DNA from: Porpolomopsis calyptriformis
Taxonomy: Eukaryota; Basidiomycota; Agaricomycetes; Agaricales; Hygrophoraceae
Direction: 5' to 3'
NCBI GenBank assembly: GCA_951640195.1
Contig: OX621171.1
Location: forward strand, 1,550,001-1,614,000
Length of the DNA: 64,000 bases
This document shows positions 5,243 to 54,754 of the stretch, in pieces. Position 1 is the stretch's first letter. Every line of letters begins with the position of its first letter. The notes under the pieces are model-generated. The model did no database searches. It was given only the letters and a program-made list of their open reading frames with translations, and was not told the origin of the DNA. A program made the position numbers and the translations under genes.

Positions 5243-5641
5243 TGTTAGATGGCAGTCTAGGGTTGATCGCAAGGTTTTACTTCAGGCTCTGGGTGTAGGG
5301 TTTTAAAGGGCTGGCAGACTACTGATTGGGGTGTTAACAAAAGAAACAGACTTATCCTAAGTCTATCTACTGCTAGCTTTATATACTAGCTAAGTATGAG
5401 TCATACTGACTATGTGTGAGTCGTAACGACTATGGATGAGTCATACTGACTATGTGTGAGTTGTAACGACTATGGATGAGTCATGTAGATAAGGAGAGTG
5501 ATGGTAGACTAAATATAGATATGGCTTGGTCACCTTCTATTACTAAGCGGAGCTTGGGTGGCTAAGCGGTTATTGATGTAAACTGTCTAATGTAAATAGG
5601 AATAGATGAGTAAAGGAAAAAGAAAAAATATATCTCTGACA
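5243..5641 (-). mobile_element. 3' LTR of gypsy E copy 1
   Basis: A 399-bp LTR; on the sense (minus) strand it starts TGTCAGAG and ends CTAACA. The purine run GGAGGTGAA at 5642-5650 (sense strand) is the polypurine tract just before it. A second copy sits at 11587-12562. This copy has two tandem units of about 40 bp (around 5397-5480) that contain TGAGTCA; copy 2 has one. Confidence 0.85.
5378..5483 (-). promoter_or_regulatory. Gypsy E LTR promoter: TATA box with three TGAGTCA sites
   Basis: On the minus strand TATATAAA lies at 5385-5378 and TGACTCA sites lie upstream at 5403-5397, 5443-5437 and 5483-5477. TGASTCA is the Gcn4/AP-1-type bZIP site. The sites recur because of a local tandem duplication. 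Confidence 0.6.
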
Positions 5642-5921
5642 TTCACCTCCACAAAAAGGTAATTCGTCCCGAATTTTAAGAAGACTCTTCGAAGTGAAGG
5701 AAGGGTGTCAAGGGGAGGTGTAAAGGGATGGTAGAGGTGGGTAGAGGGGTGATAAGATGGGTGAGCAATGAAGAGGAGGGATGAGTGGATAGTTGTTGGA
5801 TCAAAGACTATCCACTAGGTATACTTTTCCTCAACTCTCCAGTAGATATCACCTTCTCTAACCACACCTCTGGAAGGGAGTTGCAAGGAATAGCCATTCG
5901 TTCAGAAACAGCATGCGGTCC

Positions 5922-6614
5922 CTAGGTCACACCATCATAAACTGGGGGTTGAAGCAGGTGTCCATCTGGGTCAAACCAGTGGTAACGGTTGTCCAACTCC
6001 CGGGCATGTTGCAACCAAGTTTCAGCCAGCTCCCTACACATCACAGCATTCTCCTCCAGATCAAGGATCCTTTTGTACTTGGCATCCATCATTAAGCAGT
6101 AGCCATTCCGGGCAATATAGAGTCGGTCGGCAATGGAATGGATGCAGTGCGAGATGGGGTCTTTGGGGATAGTGGGGGTGGTGACGTCAGATTCGTCCTG
6201 GTCCGGTATAACCATCAAAAGTTAGCGCCCAACTTGGTACGCCTCCAGCCAATCTTCAAGTTGATTCTTCTTATCGTCAAAGTCGCTGTCCTTGTCAAAC
6301 GTGTACTAGTAACAGTCATAGTTGAGTTCGCATCGACGTGCTCCAGAAATGAAAGGGACATAGGTCTCGGGGCACCCAGATAGGTGCTCGACCTTGGCAA
6401 AGGGGAGCCCTCGGTAATTTCAGTTTCATCCCGGCTTGTCGATAGTATTGGTGTGCCGCTTTGGCTTCTTGAACTGTTGAGTAACCAAGACACTGTCGGA
6501 TGAGGAAGAGGAAGAAGAGGAATCAGGGGGGAGGTTGGAGGTAGAAGCAGGGGGGTTCCCTTGAGGTGGACGCCTCCCAGTCGACTTGCGGGCGTAACAA
6601 ACTTCGTGGGGCAT
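5922..6614 (-). pseudogene. Gypsy E accessory ORF with histone H3-tail-like N-terminus
   Basis: A single frame of 231 codons starts at ATG 6614-6612, 115 bases after the pol stop, and ends at 5922. Near its start it reads CYARKSTGRRPPQG; histone H3 residues 7-12 are ARKSTG. A Ser/Pro-rich linker with a run of Ser follows, then a helical C-terminal domain (DDKKNQLEDWLEAYQVG, RELAETWLQHARELD). Four stops break it: two TGA (one at an expected CGA), a TAG and a TAA. Copy 2 at 12563-13359 keeps the C-terminal domain, and family D has the same arrangement at 53740-54304. The H3 resemblance is seen; a role in binding or mimicking chromatin is inference. Confidence 0.7.
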
Positions 6615-6728
6615 TTTGTGCTTCTTTTGGTGATTGTCGGGAAGGGGGAGTCCTTATAATTGTCGGAGATTGAAAAAGAGAAAAAGAGATTCAATAATCG
6701 TGATATCGGTAGTATTCATGAAAGAGAG

Positions 6729-8246
6729 TTAAATCGCCGCTTGAATAGACTTTTCATAATTCATCAAGACGTCTTTTGCATGCTTGAGGTTCCATCGTGG
6801 TTCCCAGGTGGCTGCCTCTATCGGGTAGCCTTTCCACTTGATTAGGTATTGTCGGTTTCGTTTTCCTGGGGTGTGATTCAGAATACATTCCACTTCATAC
6901 TCGGGTTCTCCTTCGATCACATCTGGAGGTGGTCGGAGATTGTCATCTTCTTCGATTGGAGGGTGGAGATCAAGATTCTCCTCTAGAGCCTTGAGTAGTG
7001 AAACATGAAACATGGGGTGGATCCTCCATGACAGTGGTAGCTTTAGTCAGTAAGCCACAGGCGATACTTGTTTTAGAATTATAAAAGGTCCAAGCCAGCG
7101 GACATCCAGTTTCTTTGCTGGCTGGCCAGTTTTCAAATTCTTAGCATCAAGCCAGACCCTTTGTCCTTCGTAAAACATGGGTTCCTTTTGACGTTTTCGA
7201 TCAGCATAGAGCTTCATTGAGTTAGCGGTCTTTTGAAGAGATTCTTCAGCATTCTCTCTAGCTCTAGTAAGCTGCACATAAAACTCATTGGCATCAGGAT
7301 TTGAGGTTTGGGTTGGAACTGATAAGGGGGTGTGAGGGTGTCGACCATATTCAAGCCAGAAGGGGGATTGGTGAGTGGAGGAATGTTCTTGGTTGTTATA
7401 AGCGAACTCCGCCGGAGCTAACCAATCTTTCCAATCATCTTGCATGAAGTTAGTGTAGAGCTATACATACTGCTCTAACTCTTGATTGGTTCGTTTGGTT
7501 TGTCCATCTGTTTGGGGGTGATAGGTGGTAGAAAGCCCAGAAGTGGTTCCTAGGAGTTTATTCAATGATGTAGCGAATGTTGATGAGAATTGAGTTCCTC
7601 GATCGGTGATGATCTTCTCTGGCCATCCATGGTGCTTCCAGACATGTTCTTGAAACAGCGCAGCAGTTCCTTTGGCAGATAGGTTTCCAGTTGTTGGGAT
7701 GAAGTGAGCCCATTTGGTGAATCTATCCACCACAACTAGAATAGCATTAAATCCTTTTGAATTAGGGAGTTCCATGATTAGATCAGCAGTGATCTGTTGC
7801 CATGGTTTAGTAGGAGGGGGTAACGGTTGGAGAAGTCCAGTGGGTTTCTGTGGATAAACCTTGGTTTGTTAACAAGCAAGGCAGGACTTCATGTAATTGG
7901 TGATATCTTGTGGGGCACCTTCCCATGTGTAGTTACGGAGGAGCAGTTCCTTCGTCTTCTCAATACTGGGATGGCCACCAGTGGGTGTGTCGTGGGTCAA
8001 TCGAATAATTTCCATGCGCAAAGATATCTCCTTTGGCACAACTATACAATCTCCAGCATCGCGCACAATGCCATCTACGTGGCTGTATCCGGAAGAGGGA
8101 TCTTCAATTTTGGCCATGATCTCGAGGGGTAGGGGGGAATGAAAGCAAAGCTTGGATAAAAAGTTGGGGGATGATAAGCTGATAATCGCATTGACAAAAA
8201 GCACATTGACAAAAAGTTCTTTTGGCAGAAGGATCTTGTCCTCCAC
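6729..8246 (-). pseudogene. Gypsy E pol: integrase and chromodomain
   Basis: Read from 8246 down: HHCC motif (HDTPTGGHPS, then CLAC), integrase core (ADLIMELP, IITDRGTQFSS, HPQTDGQTKRTNQ), GPF/Y-like region (WLGPFIILKQV) and a C-terminal chromodomain at 6729-6930 with YEVECIL, YLIKWKGYP and TWEP, which supply the aromatic positions expected for methyl-lysine reading. The glutamate of the DDE triad is Lys here (GQTK instead of GQTE), so the enzyme is dead at this residue. Stops are mostly at Arg positions. Close in sequence to gypsy D pol. Confidence 0.92.
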
Positions 8247-10837: not shown

Positions 10838-11586
10838 CTGTCTCACTGCCGCTTTCCATGGCACTCAAAGGCTGCTGAATCATGCGGCGGCAGTTCTGAA
10901 GCTGCCGAAGCATCCCCCCACTGAAGTTGGAGCAGACATGTCTAGTTTTGCGATGCATCAAATGGAGCAGCTAGTTGCGCCATGGAGGGAGTCCATCTGG
11001 GGACTTATCACTGCCACTTTCTATTGCATTCAGGGTTGCTGAATCTCACTGAGGTGGTCCCAAGCTGCGCAACATCCCCCACTGAGGTTGGAGCAGACAT
11101 GTCTAGTTTGCGATGCATCAAATGGAGTAGCTAGGTGCGCCATGGAAGGGGTCCATCTGGGGACTTATGGCTGCCACTTTCCATTGCATTCAGGGTTGCT
11201 GAATTGCACAGAGGTGGTCCCAAGCTGCGCAACATCACTCACTAAAGTTGGAGCAGAAATGCCTAGTTTGTAATGCATCAAATAGACCAGCTAGTTGTGC
11301 CATGGAAGGGGTCTATCTGGGGACTTATTGCTGCCACTTTCCATTGCATTCATAGTTGCTGAATCTCACAAAGGTGGTCCCAAGCTGCCAAATATCACTC
11401 ACTGAGATTGGAGCAGAAATATCTAGTTTGCAATGCATAAAATGGAGCAGCTAGTTACACTATGGAAGGGGTCTATCTGGGGACTTATGGCTGCCACTTT
11501 CCATTGCATTCAGGGTTACCAAATCACACAGAGATGGTCCCAAGCTGCCAAACATCCCCCACTGAAGTTGGAGTAGACATGTCTAG
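10838..11586. repeat. 160-bp tandem repeat array, about 4.6 copies
   Basis: The phrase GGAGCAGACATGTCTAGTTT or a variant begins at 10929, 11090, 11250, 11410 and 11570, spacing 161, 160, 160 and 160 bases, with a partial unit upstream. Units differ mostly by C/T and G/A. No frame is conserved across units. The array stops exactly at the LTR beginning at 11587, so that LTR probably landed inside it. A short GC dinucleotide run and poly-A lie just upstream (10790-10830). Confidence 0.9.
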
Positions 11587-12562
11587 TGTTAGATAGCAGT
11601 GTAGAGTTGATTACAAGGTTTTACTTCAGGCTCTCAGTACAGGGTTTTAAAGAGTTGGTGGACTACTAATTTGGGGTGTTACTGAAAGAAACAGACTTAT
11701 CCTAAGTCTATCTGCTGCTAGCTTTATATACTAGCTATGTATGATTCATACTGACTATGTGTGAGTTGTAACGACTATAGATGAGTTATGTGGATAAGGA
11801 GAGTAATGGTAGACTAAATATAGATATGGCTTGGTCACCTTCTATTACTAAGCAGAGCTTGGGTAGCTAAGTGGTTATTGATGTAAACTGTCTGATGTAA
11901 ATAGGAATAGACAAGTCAAGGAGAGGGGGCAGAGTAGCTAATCAGTAACTCTGTCCCAACTGGGGCAGGGGTCTGCCAGGAGCTCGGTGGTTCGAGCCTG
12001 GCTCAAGCCAAGTGGTGCAAACCCACTTGGATTGACTGTGAGACTATGGATGCGGTCAGCACTCTAGAGGGTCTTCTGGCTGTCTAGGGTCAAACACCCA
12101 TGAGTTAGTCCATGGAAACGTATGCAGGAGTGGTAACTGTGGGTGGTGCCACTAGGTAACTGCATGAAATGACCTCGGGACCCTGGGGGAAAAACCCACG
12201 CCTGGCTAGGATCACTAACTAGCAGTAGAATATTGGGTAGGTCTCTAAGAGACCGACTGGTAACCTGTTCCCAGTTATAAATATATTGGGTACATGTATC
12301 AGGACTCCCTCGGTGGCATTGACCCCCTTTGAAAAGGGAGGGCCTTGGCCCGACAGCCGTGAGGCAAAACCGCTTAGGGGATGTACTCACTGAGGGTTAA
12401 TGAGTTGTCGTGGATTGGTCCCTGGTGTGCAACCAGGGGCCATTTTTCCACCGCGTCTGAGCACATTTGTTTGCTTGTTGCGGTATATAAATGCTGAATA
12501 CAAAAAAAAAAAAAAAAAAAAAAAAGACAAGTCAAGGAAAAAGAAAAAATATATCTCTGACA
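11587..12562 (-). mobile_element. LTR of gypsy E copy 2, interrupted by a SINE
   Basis: Same LTR as 5243-5641, starting TGTTAGATAGC on the plus strand and ending CTCTGACA at 12562; without the SINE and one duplication it is 360 bp. It lacks one of the two 40-bp units seen in copy 1. It is followed by about 800 bases of the family E 3' internal region, so it is a 3' LTR on the minus strand. Confidence 0.85.
11923..12525 (+). mobile_element. SINE copy 1 with poly(A) tail
   Basis: About 580 bp plus a 24-base poly(A) (12502-12525), flanked by a perfect 13-bp duplication GACAAGTCAAGGA (11910-11922 and 12526-12538). The 5' end has pol III promoter features: an A-box-like TAGCTAATCAGT near 11936 and a B box GGTTCGAGCC at 11989-11998. 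A second copy is at 51091-51685 in reverse. tRNA-like head, long unrelated body and poly(A) end fit a SINE mobilised by an unseen LINE. A 108-codon frame in both copies has no sign of being a gene. Confidence 0.88.
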
Positions 12563-13359
12563 TTCACCTCCACAAAAAGGAAATCCATTCTGAATTTTAA
12601 GATGTTCCTCTGAAGGGAAAGTAGCAGTGTTAAGGGGAGGTGTACAGGGCATGGCAGGAGTGGACAGAAGGGTGATGGGAGGGAAGAGCAATCCAGAGGG
12701 GGGATGAGTGGACAGATGTCAGATCACTAGGTATACTTTTCCTAGACTCTCCAGTAGATATCACCTTCTCTAACCACACCTCTAGCAGGGATCGCAAGCA
12801 GTACCCATTCATTAGGGAACAGCATCCAGTCCCTAGCTTGCACTGTTATAAGCTAGGGGTTGAAGTAGGTGTCCATCTGGGTTAAACTAGTAGTAATAGT
12901 TGTCTAGCTTCCAGGCACACTGCAACCAGGTTTCAGCCATCTCTCTACTCATCACTGCATTCTCCTTCAGGTCAAAGATCCTTTTGTACTTGGCATCCAT
13001 GATTGAGTGATAGCTATTCTCAGTAATATAGAGTTGCTCAGCAATGCGATGGATATGGTGCAAGATGGGGTCTTCAGGGATAGTGGGGGTGGTAATGTCA
13101 GATTTGTCCTGGTCCAGTATAACTATCAAAAGTTGGTGCCCAACTTGGTATACCTCTAGCCAATCTTTGAGTTGATTCTTCTTATTGTCAAAGTCTCTGC
13201 CCTTATTAAACATATACTAGTAATAGGTATAGTTGAGTTCACATTGACATACTCTAGAAATAAAGGGATATAGGTCTCAGGGCACCTGGAAAGGTGCTCA
13301 ACCTTGGTGAAGGGGAGCCCTCTATAGTTTTAGTTTCATCCTAGCTTATCAATAGTATC
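12563..13359 (-). pseudogene. Gypsy E copy 2: remnant of the accessory ORF and 3' region
   Basis: Colinear with 5642-6440 of copy 1. It keeps the helical domain (DNKKNQLKDWLEVYQVG, MDAKYKRIFDLKENAVMS, MAETWLQCAWKLD at about 13213-12887) but not the histone-like N-terminus, being cut at 13359 by another LTR. Stops are present. Comparison with copy 1 shows the domain is a real, shared coding region. Confidence 0.75.
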
Positions 13360-13726: not shown

Positions 13727-14560
13727 GTTACTCTACAATCAGGCATTAGCTGGTTTTGAGGACCATCCAGGTACCACCCACCCATTCATGCTTATATTGG
13801 CCAACAACCTCACTGGCATTTATGAGTTACAAGGATAATTCAACGAGGCTGAACCACTCTACAATTGGGCATTAGCTGGTTGCAAGGACATCTTGGTGCT
13901 GATCACCCATCCATGCTTTACATTGGTGAGTAACCTCATAACTCAAGGATGATACAACAAGACTGAACCACTCTTCAAGTGGGTGTTAGCTGGCAGAGGA
14001 AACATCTTGGCATTGACCACCCATTCACACTTGCACCAGCAAACAACCTCGCAGGTGTTTACAAGTCACAAGGACAATACAAGGAGGCTGAGTCACTCTA
14101 CAAGTGGGCAGATAGGACCATCTGGGTGCTGATCACCCTTTCATACTTAAGTTGGTGAGTAACCTTGCACTTCTTTATAAGGATGATATAACAAGGCTGA
14201 GACTCTCTACAATTGGGCATTAGCTGGGTGCAAGAACATCTTGGCACTAACTGCCCATCCATACTTACATTAGTGAGTAACCTTACAGATGTTTGCTACT
14301 CACAAGGACAATACAATGTGGCTAAATCACTCTTCAAGCAGGTGTTAGTGGGTAGAGAGGATCTGGGCACTAATCACCCACTCACACTTACATTAGTGAG
14401 CAACCTCACTCTTGTTTACAAGGATGATATGATGAAGCTGAGTTACTCTTCAAGCTGGCATTGGCTGGTTGCGAGGACTATCCAGGTACTGATCACCCAT
14501 CCACACTTATGTCAGCAAACAACCTCACTCTGGATTCAGACAAGTCTCAAGGGGTGTACA
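13727..14560 (+). pseudogene. TPR-repeat (kinesin-light-chain type) pseudogene
   Basis: Seven or so degenerate repeats of about 126 bases encode versions of A-L-A-G, D-H-P, L-V-S-N-L, V-Y-K, S-Q-G-Q-Y and A-E-P-L-Y, the 42-residue TPR pattern of kinesin light chain and of the C-termini of fungal NB-ARC/NACHT proteins. The frame shifts repeatedly and has stops in most repeats. No nucleotide-binding domain is visible nearby. Related TPR pieces lie at 24988-25812 and 57979-58215 on the other strand. Confidence 0.82.
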
Positions 14561-20171: not shown

Positions 20172-21668
20172 TCAATAGTCAGGTCCGGGTTTCTCTGGAT
20201 AAGTGGAGTGGAACTCCGAGATGAGTTCCAAAGCATGTCCTAGCTCAGTAGCGAGGATCCATGAGGTTTCTTCGTCGGTACCTTCATAGCCTTCCCAACA
20301 AACCAAATACAATAATTTGCATAAGTGATGCCTATTATCAATTTTTGAGTCTAGGATTTTGGAGATCTCAAACTCCGGTTCTCCGTCTATGATTACCAGA
20401 GGAGGCAGAGGTTGTACTTAGTTCAGAATCATATTCGGTGAGGCTGGTTCCAACTGTGATACATGAAAGACAGGATGGATAGCTTTCATAGAACTAGGCA
20501 AATGGAGAGTATAGGAATGGGTTCCAACTCAGGCAATGACCTTGAAAGGACCTAAGTTCTTCTCTGAGAGTTTTTTGGAGGGTCTGGTAGTTCGGAAAAA
20601 CTTGGCCTTTATGAAGGCTTGAGTTCCTATTTCAAAATCAGGGGCCAGAATGCGCTTTAAGTCAGCGTAGTACTGATAATGCTTTTGAGCTTCGGAGATG
20701 GTATTTCGGAGTTCGGAGTGGAGTTTGTCCAAATCAACAGCTAGTTCTCTGGCTTGAACAGAAGTAAGATCGCGCTTAGGGTGTACTGAAATATTTGGAT
20801 AATAACCCTTGTTAGCGAAAAAAGGGGATATCCCAGTAGTAGCATTCAGAGTGTTGTTATATGCAAATTCTGCAATAGCCAGGAGATGGGGCCAGTTGTC
20901 CTGTTGATAGTTACAATACATCCATAGGTATTGCTCCAAGGTTTGATTGACTCATTCAGTTTGTCCATCACCTTCTGGATGATACCTGGAGGTAAAATGG
21001 AGATGAATGTCAAGGACTTTACCCAATGACCGGAAAAAGTGGGAGACGAATTCCAAGCCTCAGTCACAGGTGACATGTGAGGGAACTCCATGTTTGGAGA
21101 ATACATGGACAAGGAAAAGTTGAGCAAGTTGAGGAGCAGTGATAGTATCGAAGGTTGGTATGAAAATAGCTTGTTTGGAGAATCGATCAACAACAACAAG
21201 AATAGCAGAGAATCCATTGGAGTTAGGGAGTTGCTCGATGAAATCCATGGAGATGGAATTCCAAGGCTTCTCCCGAATTGGGAGTTGCTTGAGCAAACCA
21301 TAAGGTCGATGGCGAGGGACTTTGGACCTAGTGCACATAGTACAGGAGTTACAGTAATCCTTTACAAAGGTCCGGAGTTTAGGCCATGTGTATTCTCGTT
21401 GGATCAATTCAAGCATTTTGTTTTGACCAAAATGACCAGCAATTGGATGATCATGTTTCATACGCAAAATTTGAAGTCGTAAGTCATCTAAGTCAGGTAC
21501 ATAGATATGACCATCATGATGAAGGAAACTGGAAGTGTCGATAGCCCATTGGAGATCGGAGTTGGCATCGGAGTTGGCATCAGAGTTGGACTCCGCAACC
21601 CTCAGGTGCTCCATAGCCACTGGATCTAATAAGGATAAAGCTCGTAGGGACAAAGCCAGTTGCTCCAA
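20172..21668 (-). pseudogene. Gypsy C1 integrase with chromodomain
   Basis: From 21668 down: HHCC (MKHDHPIAGHFG, CNSCTMC), core with SMDFIEQLPNS, then VTCD with its Arg codon now TGA, PEGDGQTE with its Arg also TGA, then AEFAYNNTLNATTGISPFF, a GPF-type region (EKNLGPFKVIA) and a chromodomain ending at a TGA at 20172-20174. The DDE residues are present. Three of the breaks are TGA for CGA. Nearly the same as the gypsy C2 copy at 30537-32033. A 130-codon frame on the plus strand (21090-21482) is a shadow, found in both copies because the coding strand is conserved. Confidence 0.92.
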
Positions 21669-30536: not shown

Positions 30537-32033
30537 TTGGAGCAACTGGCTTTGTCCCTACGAGCTTTATCCTTATTAAATCCAGTGGCTATGGAGCACC
30601 TGAGGGTTGCGGAGTCCAACTCTGATGCCAACTCCGATGCCAACTCCGATCTCCAATGGGCTATCGACACTTCCAGTTTCCTTCATCATGATGGTCGTAT
30701 CTATGTGCCTGACTTAGATGACTTACGACTTCAAATTTTGCGTATGAAACATGATCATCCAATTGCTGGTCATTTTGGTCAAAACAAAATGCTTGAATTG
30801 ATCCAACGAGAATACACATGGCCTAAACTCCGGACCTTTGTAAAGGATTACTGTAACTCCTGTACTATGTGCACTAGGTCCAAAGTCCCTCGCCATCGAC
30901 CTTATGGTTTGCTCAAGCAACTCCCAATTCAGGAGAAGCCTTGGAATTCCATCTCCATGGATTTCATTGAGCAACTCCCTAACTCCAATGGATTCTCTGC
31001 TATTCTTGTTGTTGTTGATCGATTCTCCAAACAAGCTATTTTCATACCAACCTTCGACACTATCACTGCTCCTCAACTCACTCAACTTTTCCTTGTCCAT
31101 GTATTCTCCAAACATGGAGTTCCCTCACATGTCACCTGTGACTGAGGCTTGGAATTCGTCTCCCACTTTTTCCGGTCATTGGGTAAAGTCCTTGACATTC
31201 ATCTCCATTTTACCTCCAGGTATCATCCAGAAGGTGATGGACAAACTGAATGAGTCAATCAAACCTTGGAGCAATACCTATGGATGTATTGTAACTATCA
31301 ACAGGACAACTGGCCCCATCTCCTGGCTATTGCAGAATTTGCATATAACAACACTCTGAATGCTACTACTGGGATATCCCCTTTTTTCGCTAACAAGGGT
31401 TATCATCCAAATATTTCAGTACACCCTAAGCGCGATCTTACTTCTGTTCAAGCCAGAGAACTAGCTGTTGATTTGGACAAACTCCACTCCGAACTCCGAA
31501 ATACCATCTCCGAAGCTCAAAAGCATTATCAGCACTACGCTGACTTAAAGCGCATTCTGGCCCCTGATTTTGAAATAGGAACTCAAGCCTTCATAAAGGC
31601 CAAGTTTTTCCGAACTACCAGACCCTCCAAAAAACTCTCAGAGAAGAACTTAGGTCCTTTCGAGGTCATTGCCTGAGTTGGAACCCATTCCTATACTCTC
31701 CATTTGCCTAGTTCTATGAAAGCTATCCATCCTGTCTTTTATATATCACAGTTGGAACCAGCCTCACCGAATACAATTCCGAACCAAGTACAACCTCTGC
31801 CTCCTCCAGTAATCATAGACAGAGAACCGGAGTTCGAGATCTCCAAAATCCTAGACTCAAAAATTGATAATAGGCATCGCTTATGCAAATTATTGTATTT
31901 GGTTCGTTGGGAAGGCTATGAAGGTACCGATGAAGAAACCTCATGGATCCTTGCTACTGAGCTAGGACATGCTTTGGAACTCGTCTCGGAGTTCCACTCC
32001 ACTTATCTGGAGAAACCCAGACCTGACTATTGA
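30537..32033 (+). pseudogene. Gypsy C2 integrase with chromodomain
   Basis: Same protein as the gypsy C1 copy at 20172-21668: HHCC, DDE core, GPF region and chromodomain (EPEFEISKILDSK, YLVRWEGYEGTDEETSW) to the TGA at 32031-32033. Breaks at VTCD, GQTE and FEVIA are TGA for CGA, at the same codons as in gypsy C1, so the stops probably predate both insertions or recur at the same CpG. Confidence 0.92.
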
Positions 32034-47474: not shown

Positions 47475-47844
47475 TGTCATGGATACTTTTTCCCTTTTCT
47501 TTTAGTCATACTTGATTAGTCTTTGTTCCGTTCATCCTCCCGCTTTACCGCTTTATATATATAGAGACTGATCACATGTATCTCCTTTCCAACTCTTCAC
47601 GAGTCACATTCCGTTTCCTCCATTCTTTTTGTGACTCTTCACCAGTCACATTCTGGATTCCGCTTTGTAATCGTACATATGACTGACTCATGCCGACTCA
47701 GGTAGTTAGTATATAAAGCCTAACCTTTAGTCAGTAGGTTAAGTTCGATTCCTAGTTAGTTCTCCCACTCTTTAGTCGAATTCCATTTCCCTATCAGCCC
47801 CACCAACGCGAGAAGTAAAACCCTTCGACTACCAAATCATAACA
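47475..47844 (+). repeat. Gypsy D 5' LTR
   Basis: 370 bp, TGTCATGGATAC to ATCATAACA. Partner at 54385-54754. Confidence 0.95.
47684..47717 (+). promoter_or_regulatory. Gypsy D LTR promoter: TGACTCA and TATATAAA
   Basis: TGACTCA at 47684-47690 is 19 bases before TATATAAA at 47710-47717. The same pair lies at 54594-54600 and 54620-54627 in the 3' LTR. Confidence 0.65.
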
Positions 47845-52110: not shown

Positions 52111-53616
52111 GAACTACAAGGTCAAGCCCTCCTTCCTCCTGAACGTTTCATCAATGCCATCATTTCCATGTCCGAACCCTCTTTCATGTCAAGACTTCGT
52201 TTTCCCAACTTTAATCAAATCCCAGAGGACATTCGCATCAAACTGTCTGATCCCTCTTCCGGCTACTCCTTCACTGATGGAATTGTGAGAGATGCAGGAG
52301 ATCGTATTGTTGTGCCAGCGGACATATCGCTATGCACAGAGATAATTTGATTGACCCACTCCCTACCCCACGGAGGCCATCCCGGAATTGAGAAGACACG
52401 TGAGCTTGTGTTGCGGAACTACACCTGGAGTAGTGCTGCCCCTGATATCTGTGTATTTGTGTCATCCTGTCTGACCTGCCAACAAGTTAAGCTTTATCCT
52501 TCGAAGCCCGCAGGTCTCCTAGAACCCATTCCCCCTTCGTCTCGACCTTGGGAAGAAATCACCGCTGATCTAATTGTGGAACTCCCCCAATCATCTGGTT
52601 ACGATGCTGTCCTAGTCGTTGTTGACCGTTTTACTAAACGCGCTCACTTCATCCTGACAACTTCAAACATTTCAGCAGAAGGAGTCGCAAAACTCTTTAG
52701 GGACAATGTATGGAAACACCATGGCTGGCCAAAGAAGATCATAACCGATCAAGGAACCCAATTCGCTTCCAAATTCACAAAAGCTCTCAACACTCACTTG
52801 GGAATCATCTCCAGTCTATCCACCACCTATCATCCCCAAACTGACGGCCAAACGGAATGAACCAATCAAGAACTTGAACAATACCTTTGTTTATACACAA
52901 ACTTTATGCAAGATGATTGGTCCAACTGGCTATCTCCAGCTGAATTCGCATATAACAACCGACAACACTCCTCGACGAAACACACTCCCTTTTACCTTGA
53001 CACTGGCTAACATCCCTTCATCCCATCTGTCCCCGCAACTTCTACTTCCAATCCCGCAGCAGACGCCTTCCATGATCATCTCACAGAAGCCCGTGAAGAA
53101 GCCACAAAAGCCCTAGAAGCCACGGCAGAAACCATGAAGCGCTTTGCAGATCGCAAACGGAAAGATACCCAACTCCAAATAGGTCAATTCATTTATCTCG
53201 ATACACGTAACTTAAAGACAGGCCGTCCAACCCTCAAACTCGATGTCCAATGCACTGGACCATTCAAAATTCTAGAAAAAATAGGAAAAGTCTCTTATTG
53301 CCTGGCCCTCCCTATCTCCTGGAAAATACACGACATTTTTCATGTTTCACTCCTGAGACCCACTAACATCAACTCCGATCTCCATCCAGAAGAAGTGGAC
53401 GATAATCTCTGCCCACCTCCGGATGTTATTCAAGAGAAAGAAGAATACGAGGTTGAACAAATCCTTCAACATCATGGGTCTACCCGACGTCGCACGTATT
53501 TAGTCAAATGGGTCGGCTATCCCATTGAAGAAGCAACTTGGGAACTGAAGAAAAATCTACTCCACACGAAAGAACGAATTCTAGAATATGAACGATTAAT
53601 TCAAACGGCGACTTAA
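52111..53616 (+). pseudogene. Gypsy D integrase with chromodomain
   Basis: HHCC (LTHSLPHGGHPG; CLTCQQ), core residues in TADLIVELPQSS, IITDQGTQFAS and HPQTDGQTE, then AEFAYNNRQHSS, a GPF-like CTGPFKILEKI and a chromodomain (YEVEQILQHHG, TYLVKWVGYPIEEATWE) ending at TAA 53614-53616. Aromatic positions for methyl-lysine binding (Tyr, Trp, Trp) are kept. Breaks: TGA at 52348 and 52858 (Arg), one TAA and one frame change near 53000-53110. Confidence 0.92.
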
Positions 53617-53739
53617 TCACTCTTTCACAGTATCAACTCCCCTCGTTTATATTTTTCACCTCCATCACCTTTTTCAAACTCCGACCAGTCCTTATAATCC
53701 TCTTCACCTCTGTCTCCCCTCTCAAAAATTGATATCACT

Positions 53740-54304
53740 ATGCCCACTGAATGTTCTTATCAAACTGCCCGCAAATCCACTGGTGGTCGTCCACCCTGTA
53801 CTCCTTGCATGTCCACTGGAGGACAACCTCCTCGTCGCGCTCTCCCTCCACTCACTTCTACCTCCTCTGCCTACAGTGAGGCAGAACTCGCTGGACAACT
53901 CTGGTAACACAATCACCGCGCATGAAACCAGGACCTTGCCATATGGCCAGAGGAAATCGTCGCACCACCCATCCCACCTGAGCAGATCATTGAGTCGTTG
54001 AAGAAGGATATCAATTATCACAAGGTTAAATGAAGAATTGTACAATCAAGGGTTGAGTTTGGATGGAAAAAGAAGAGTGAGCAAATATTGGCGAGAACAG
54101 GCCAAGTACTGGGGAGCAAAACACGAGGAAGTCACAAAGGTACTTCCCCATCTCGACTCTCCTGCTCACCCTGTTTTCCCAGGTCTGCTCATCGTTCCCC
54201 CTGGTTCGTCGTCAAACCCCATCACCATCCCCAACGACGACAATACTTCCCCGGCTGACATTATTTCCCTGTCGACCACCATCTCCGACAAGGACTTGTC
54301 TTAG
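53740..54304 (+). pseudogene. Gypsy D accessory ORF with a histone H3 tail copy
   Basis: ATG at 53740, 123 bases after the pol stop. The first residues are MPTECSYQTARKSTGGRPP: QTARKSTGG is identical to histone H3 residues 5-13, centred on Lys9. A second, weaker copy follows (CMSTGGQPPRRALP, compare H3 STGGKAPRKQLA). The frame has TAA at 53905 and TGA near 53920 (Arg), then PEEIVAPPIPPEQIIESLKK, a one-step frame change near 54030 and a helical part (LSLDGKRRVSKYWREQAKYW) with a Pro/Ser/acidic tail to TAG 54302-54304. Gypsy E has the same layout. The match is seen directly; that it is methylated or read by chromodomains is inference. Confidence 0.75.
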
Positions 54305-54384: not shown

Positions 54385-54754
54385 TGTCACGGATACTTTT
54401 TCCCTTTTCTTCTAGTCATACTTGATTAGTCTTTGTTCCGTTCATCCTCCCGCTTTACCGCTTTATATATATAGAGACTGATCACATGTATCTCCTTTCC
54501 GACTCTTCACAAGTCACATTCCGTTTCCTCCATTCTTTTTGTGACTCTTCACCAGTCACATTCCGGATTCCGCTTTGTAATCGTACATACAACTGACTCA
54601 TGCCGACTCAGGTAGTTAGTATATAAAGCCTAACCTTTAGTCAGTAGGTTAAGTTCGATTCCTAGTTAGTTCTCCCACTCTTTAGTCGAATTCCATTTCC
54701 CTATCAGCCCCACCAACGCGAGAAGTAAAACCCTTCAACTACCGAATCATAACA
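54385..54754 (+). repeat. Gypsy D 3' LTR
   Basis: 370 bp, TGTCACGGATAC to ATCATAACA, followed by the ACTGT duplication. Confidence 0.95.

Follow-up and report, generated by a model that had tools for sequence, protein, structure and literature searches.

A chromovirus with a third open reading frame

The window, by which we mean the whole stretch of 64,000 nucleotides analysed here (1550001-1614000 of contig C9), carries on its forward strand a gypsy retrotransposon that we refer to as family D. Two 300-nt LTR blocks (47475..47774 and 54385..54684), 98% identical to each other and 6910 nt apart, bracket its coding part. The C-terminal part of its pol (52285..53613) comprises an integrase zinc-binding domain, the integrase core, an SH3-like domain and a chromodomain, named after the Pfam matches (Integrase_H2C2, rve, SH3_Tf2-1 and Chromo) in the open pol of another copy, L002. 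The window pol is 91% identical to that of L002 and is interrupted by internal stops, its last open frame ending at 53616. Flanking LTRs and an integrase with a C-terminal chromodomain, the two features examined for this class, are both present and make D a chromovirus (chromodomain Ty3/gypsy element). Further copies were sought in the element's own genome, 33.5 Mb in 17 contigs, which its intron-bearing H3 genes mark as eukaryotic and its elements as probably fungal.

The chromodomain that the earlier note had placed at the end of the D integrase is indeed there (53425..53613, forward strand; sequence and fold matches), and the Y/W/Y residues of a methyl-lysine cage are present. By sequence, it matches the chromodomains of HP1, CDYL, MPP8 and SUV39H1. 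A predicted model of this stretch of the window (mean pLDDT 74, pTM 0.44), in which a first block at pLDDT 60 is followed by chromodomain blocks at 79-90, matched the Ty3 integrase and chromodomain-H3K9me3 complexes, with three matches at E <= 0.001. Sequence and predicted fold thus support a chromodomain of the HP1 type, with a cage for methyl-lysine, at the end of the D integrase. With a search pattern that allowed Y, F, H, C or a stop at the first place, the Y/W/Y cage was found in 29 of 30 D copies, the remaining one having a stop at W, as well as in 23/30 copies of a related family E (seven were not read) and 20/20 copies of a family F. Gao and others reportedly observed in 2008 that retrotransposon chromodomains bind H3K9me. 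Two other gypsy pol copies in the window (20202-21506, reverse strand; 30696-32003, forward strand) share no more than about 36% identity with D pol and have F in place of the first cage Tyr; a six-frame motif scan of the window found no ARKS beside them.

Directly downstream of the D pol, an open reading frame at 53740..53907 on the forward strand translates to MPTECSYQTARKSTGGRPPCTPCMSTGGQPPRRALPPLTSTSSAYSEAELAGQLW followed by a stop. Residues 8-16, QTARKSTGG (53761..53787), are identical to residues 5-13 of histone H3, so that translation bears out the exact H3 copy that the earlier note had reported for this frame. The expected number of exact 9-mers of H3 1-40 in the six frames of the window is 1.3e-5. 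The 55-residue product is the broken N-terminal stump of a third open reading frame (ORF3), which runs to 192 residues in D copies such as L002 and is stop-free in 22 of the 30 D copies fetched; leftovers of the end of its helix region and of its C-terminus lie in another frame at 54038..54304 (forward strand).

In intact D ORF3s, a linker joins the H3-like tail to a helix region with a heptad pattern, which is followed by a mildly acidic end. The heptad pattern was equalled by 1 and 2 of 300 shuffles in two D copies, and the helix region is likely to form a coiled coil, as judged from sequence; the signal is weaker in a D variant, D2 (12/300 shuffles), and in E (24/300), and absent in F (160 and 162/300). 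No Pfam family scored above cut-off for the tail plus helix region of D. Neither a histone family, and with it a histone fold of the H3/CENP-A kind, nor an envelope protein was among the Pfam matches of D and E ORF3, and we rejected a histone gene fragment as the identity of ORF3 because the histone family was not found. The lysine equivalent to H3 K9 is present in all 22 intact D ORF3s and is the sole lysine within the first 85 residues in 20 of them. Arginine is frequent (mean 7.0 within the first 60 residues), and inspection by eye shows other residues where H3 has K4, K14 and K18.

Distribution of the motif and of a shared spacer box

Searching the genome with the 55-residue stump returned 100 D places, the last few being fragments. 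The DNA pattern for ARKSTG has 125 matches genome-wide versus 14 for the reversed pattern. On contigs C1-C10, those with a complete pattern list, the exact pattern is retained at 53/76 D places and 36/77 E places, counts drawn from all 100 D matches and 100 of the 122 E matches; three more pattern matches (on C1, C7 and C9) fall in E matches outside the 100 counted. Exact QTARKSTGG occurs in 26 of the 30 D copies fetched and in 19/22 intact ones, and three of the 22 read QTAHKSTGG, with H for R. The earlier note had allowed that no other D or E copy might keep the motif, or that the frame might be a host H3 gene fragment captured by this one copy. Neither proved to be the case: the pattern counts show its retention in both families, and capture by a single copy was rejected because many copies of the two families keep the motif.

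The family-E element lies on the reverse strand. The C-terminal part of its pol (6735..8066), which includes a chromodomain and has internal stops, is followed by an ORF3 stump, MPHEVCYARKSTGRRPP, at 6429..6614, which carries the motif too; a genome search with this stump gave the 122 matches mentioned above. E ORF3 measures 230 residues in intact copies (6 of the 30 fetched). ARKSTG is present in 21/30 E copies and in five of the six intact ones, the sixth reading ARKLTG, and further lysines occur from residue 49 onward. An initiator Met is usually removed before Pro. Counted without it, the E motif falls at A7-R8-K9-S10-T11-G12 in H3 numbering, and the D motif is shifted by two. Around the E element, a second fragment (12515-13093) matches 5594-6182 of the element at about 80% or more, and the stretches 10947-11566 and 13760-14417 hold tandem 160-nt repeats and a series of related repeats at a spacing of 116-123 nt.

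In D2, QTARKSTGG was found in two of three fetched copies and QTAHKSTGG in the third; one D2 copy was examined for tail lysines and has a single one. Family F was recovered in a chromodomain-region search at 56-59% identity to D (best 150 of 821 candidates). An ORF starting MPATRS lies downstream of pol in 17 of 20 F loci; it has 245-248 residues where intact, several copies have long open frames, and a search with it gave at least 150 matches (best 150 of 304 candidates, all of which matched). Its tail reads MPATRS...QVAIRR(S/A)GRIP, with arginine where H3 has K9, and no lysine was seen within the first 54 residues in the three copies examined. In a tree built from 23 pol rows, D, E and F each form a clade of their own, without a firm deep order, so that either F has lost an ancestral motif or D and E have gained it.

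The spacers between pol and ORF3 share a TTATAA box. In the window, it lies at 53692..53697 (forward strand), 48 nt upstream of the D ORF3 ATG, and at 6654..6659 (reverse strand), 45 nt upstream of that of E. Across copies, the box was found in 30/30 D spacers (46-50 nt before the ATG), 26/30 E spacers (45 nt) and 20/20 F spacers (67-109 nt), and in that of the one D2 copy examined. Among one D, one E and two F spacers that were compared and are otherwise unlike, TTATAA is the only common hexamer; the chance of its arising in a shuffled spacer is 0.05 for D, 0.05 for E and 0.09 for F. Its sharing among the three families suggests that ORF3 has a promoter of its own.

Beyond this genome, the motif pattern matched 20 loci in viral contigs, four of them in an ATG frame, one of which is broken by a stop before the motif. 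All 20 are without a D pol match and were therefore attributed to chance and rejected as viral relatives; among 69 stretches from viral contigs, none was a relative of D pol. Of 81 stretches from genome contigs, 23 were distant pol relatives, at no more than 44% identity besides 47% over 45 residues, and ARK[ST][TGA]G is absent from all 23. Protein-level searches returned no match at E <= 1 for D ORF3 (138 candidates) or E ORF3 (1537 candidates); the same protein database holds pol relatives at 58-67% identity.

Selection on the H3-like tail

Selection was assessed in the 30 D and 30 E copies closest to the window stumps over the first 55-62 residues, a choice that disfavours changes in that part. 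Parsimony counts of changes, from which CpG transitions were excluded, were made on in-frame sets that left out 2/30 D and 12/30 E copies and kept some copies with internal stops. In D (28/30 copies), the nine H3-identical codons showed 16 synonymous and no nonsynonymous changes (neutral binomial p 1.5e-8), compared with 214 synonymous and 149 nonsynonymous changes in the remainder of ORF3 (Fisher p 2.7e-4), the body of which has an omega of about 0.24. Restricting the set to the 22 stop-free copies left 13 synonymous and no nonsynonymous changes in the motif (Fisher p 0.0026). When all 183 nine-codon windows were ranked by the most synonymous changes without an amino-acid change, the one starting at codon 8 (QTARKSTGG) tied for first with that starting at codon 9, and the K9-equivalent lysine is kept in 30/30 copies. 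These counts support the motif as the most constrained part of D ORF3.

E ORF3 is likewise under purifying selection (omega about 0.21; 18/30 copies). Its six motif codons, with three synonymous changes and one nonsynonymous change, are not more constrained than the rest (Fisher p 0.58). Aligning the ARKS motif by family for a dN/dS comparison, as the earlier note had advised, therefore gave a divided answer, strong constraint in D and no significant signal in E alone. For E, the argument comes from conservation between families, because the D and E pols are 63% and their ORF3s 27% identical in alignment, yet both keep ARKSTG-x-RPPR.

When CpG transitions were counted, three extra nonsynonymous motif changes appeared in the 30 D copies, all at arginine, and seven in the E motif. 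Inferred motif losses were of the CpG type in 3/3 D and 7/8 E events, as expected of methylated, dying copies. CpG decay is strong in D and E copies generally, and the host has DNA methylase domains, a combination that speaks of methylation-linked repeat decay.

A second, weaker H3-like unit, MSTGGQPPRR (53809..53838, forward strand), exists as the earlier note had described, but it has methionine at the K9 place, in 30/30 D copies, and lacks comparable constraint: codons 24-33 showed six synonymous and seven nonsynonymous changes outside CpG. It is degraded in D2 and absent in E and F, so that no K9M unit kept by selection was found.

Function and origin of the tail

Histone mimicry has been described for viruses. 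The passages cited from one source list H3 tail mimics in influenza NS1 (ARSK), SARS-CoV-2 ORF8 (ARKS) and adenovirus protein VII (AKKRS) (PMC10208167), and the function of the ORF8 mimic is disputed in the part cited of another (PMC10833455). Like the viral proteins as outlined there, ORF3 is a foreign protein with a short H3 tail copy that includes a modifiable lysine; unlike them, it has nine identical residues in D, placed near the N-terminus as in H3, and belongs to a genomic LTR retrotransposon that is present in dozens of copies and pairs it with a chromodomain of its own (compare PMC10208167). What marks a viral-type mimic, an exact H3 tail motif with a modifiable lysine that is kept by selection, was found in D; E carries the motif, but the selection test on E alone was non-significant. 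Among the papers listed in a literature search, at the level of titles and abstract openings and with few subscription journals covered, there was no retrotransposon-encoded H3 mimic, which is what ORF3 would be.

Other systems share single features with ORF3. A figure legend of PMC2864245 notes fungal chromoviruses that have one more ORF, without known function; as described there they have, like D and E, a gypsy pol with a C-terminal chromodomain and, in some, an extra ORF, a comparison by description that involves neither role nor sequence. The candidate H3K9 mimics among H3K9me2 readers and writers in the excerpt of PMC10611923 are, like ORF3, non-histone proteins with an H3K9-like sequence; as described there they are host proteins, unlike ORF3, and the comparison is by description only. 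A third, non-envelope ORF beside gag and pol occurs also in LTR retrotransposons of bdelloid rotifers, where, in the portion cited, it encodes enzymes (esterase, exonuclease) rather than the tail plus helix region of D (PMC5408684). Fungal transposon-encoded TET/JBP dioxygenases are thought, in the section cited of PMC12730594, to help escape silencing; these are DNA methylation enzymes in DNA transposons, whereas ORF3 would be a histone-tail mimic in an LTR element.

Lysine 9 of H3 is the switch by which cells silence jumping genes. We consider it somewhat probable (about 0.55), on the sequence-level evidence of one genome, that ORF3 functions as a mimic of the H3K9 type and engages writers or readers of K9. 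D and E ORF3 would be an accessory protein, probably with a transcript of its own, and would display an H3-like K9 tail near its free N-terminus, with the D coiled coil multimerising the tail. A SUV39/Clr4-type enzyme of the host might accept the tail as a substrate or be held by it; the host has a Pre-SET/SET methyltransferase gene of this type, recognised by one Pre-SET match above cut-off that shares its locus with a SET match. (A search for host HP1 by its chromoshadow domain was uninformative, the control itself having no match.) The methylated, multimerised tail could then occupy K9-methyl readers (HP1 or Clr4 chromodomains), and this occupation would weaken silencing of the element, the tail acting as a decoy. 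Methylation and reader binding are suggested by the single retained lysine and by a tail identical to the segment that chromodomains hold in their complexes with H3K9me. A decoy is favoured on two grounds: ORF3 seems to have a promoter of its own, and the tail would become multivalent through a coiled coil. Nuclear H3 is abundant, and a decoy would therefore need a high local concentration. Taken alone, the decoy step is put forward tentatively. A still fuller scenario, in which a transmissible H3K9 decoy, evolved or exon-captured and in D pared down to K9 as the one lysine of its tail, has its own promoter, is methylated by the SUV39/Clr4-type enzyme of the host, titrates K9-methyl readers and also talks to its own integrase chromodomain, so that one mobile element would contain a complete write-read mimic, we hold to be rather doubtful.

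The main rival to the decoy, which could co-occur with it, is binding of the methylated tail to the element's own integrase, where it would tune target choice rather than silencing, either by keeping the chromodomain occupied until integration or by bridging it to other proteins. Tail and chromodomain are encoded by the same element, the cage is present in D, E and F, and the chromodomain model matches chromodomain-H3K9me3 complexes. D places are moreover clustered, with a median nearest neighbour at 77 kb versus 121 kb for random places (0/300 sets as low), and the E median is 92 kb versus 119 kb (23/300 sets); such clustering, however, is to be expected if the chromodomain acts by itself or if the places lie in gene-poor regions. 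In F, the same cage goes together with an ORF3 that lacks K9, and the chromodomain as such therefore needs no mimic, which leaves integrase binding unlikely in our estimate. We give still less credit to a use of the H3-like tail that does not involve K9 methylation, be it import into the nucleus, phosphorylation of the residue equivalent to S10 or the recruitment of another reader of the H3 tail. R-K-S is also a kinase-type context, the ORF3 tail is basic, and F retains a basic tail, RR-(S/A)-G-R-x-P, in the corresponding position; a generic basic tail, though, would tolerate exchange of K and R, which is at odds with the invariant lysine of D, and would not rank QTARKSTGG at the top of 183 windows.

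That the likeness to H3 is a chance product of a basic tail rich in R, S, T and P, with its constraint unrelated, might draw on the persistence of a non-H3 version in sister family F. We judge it very improbable, given how few exact H3 9-mers are expected in the window, the keeping of the motif by two families with 63% pol identity and the coincidence of the constraint with the H3-identical stretch. Least credible of all is that the second unit, RMSTGGQPPRR, holds the methyltransferase. The H3K9M histone traps Clr4 in fission yeast according to the part cited of PMC5030085, and the D unit shares its invariant M at the K9 place; that protein is a mutant histone in chromatin, whereas the D unit has no special constraint, is degraded in D2 and is missing from E and F. 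A K9M trap was rejected as the main mechanism for want of such constraint.

If the tail of the preferred H3K9-type mimic is methylated and read, a mobile element would carry both a mimic of its own silencing mark and a chromodomain that reads this mark. The resulting arms race over H3K9 methylation would then be testable with short peptides and reporter yeast, for which F, with arginine at the K9 place, offers a natural control.

As to where the tail came from, the host has three H3 genes, with introns, and in all three an interruption follows ARKSTG(G). A short exon of the gene at C2:3412.9k (L062), with splice sites placed by eye, encodes just QTARKSTG and one further base, the first of G13; these bounds are the bounds of identity in D ORF3, and the other two genes have the end of their first exon at this point too. 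Such bounds in the C2 gene raise the odds that the tail arose when a host H3 exon was captured, an origin that would be compatible with any functional reading. Seven D copies share 7/9 codons with the H3 gene at C5:682.8k (L061/L070), and four share 8/9 with that at C5:691.3k. Yet a codon-usage null reaches 7/9 in 4% of draws, D copies differ among themselves in codons, and the C2 gene, the one with the matching exon, shares just 3-5 codons with the commonest D patterns; chromodomains also read about the same stretch, which would give its bounds a functional reason. We therefore regard exon capture as conceivable but somewhat unlikely. The acceptor before the next exon of the gene at C5:682.8k looks unusual, and this gene may be a diverged or decaying copy. 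A CENP-A-like gene of the host (L067, C1:1282k) has the tail GTARKSSGGRAPRR, and its N-tail GTARKSSGGRAPRRSSRGG also resembles the D tail, with R at the K14 place.
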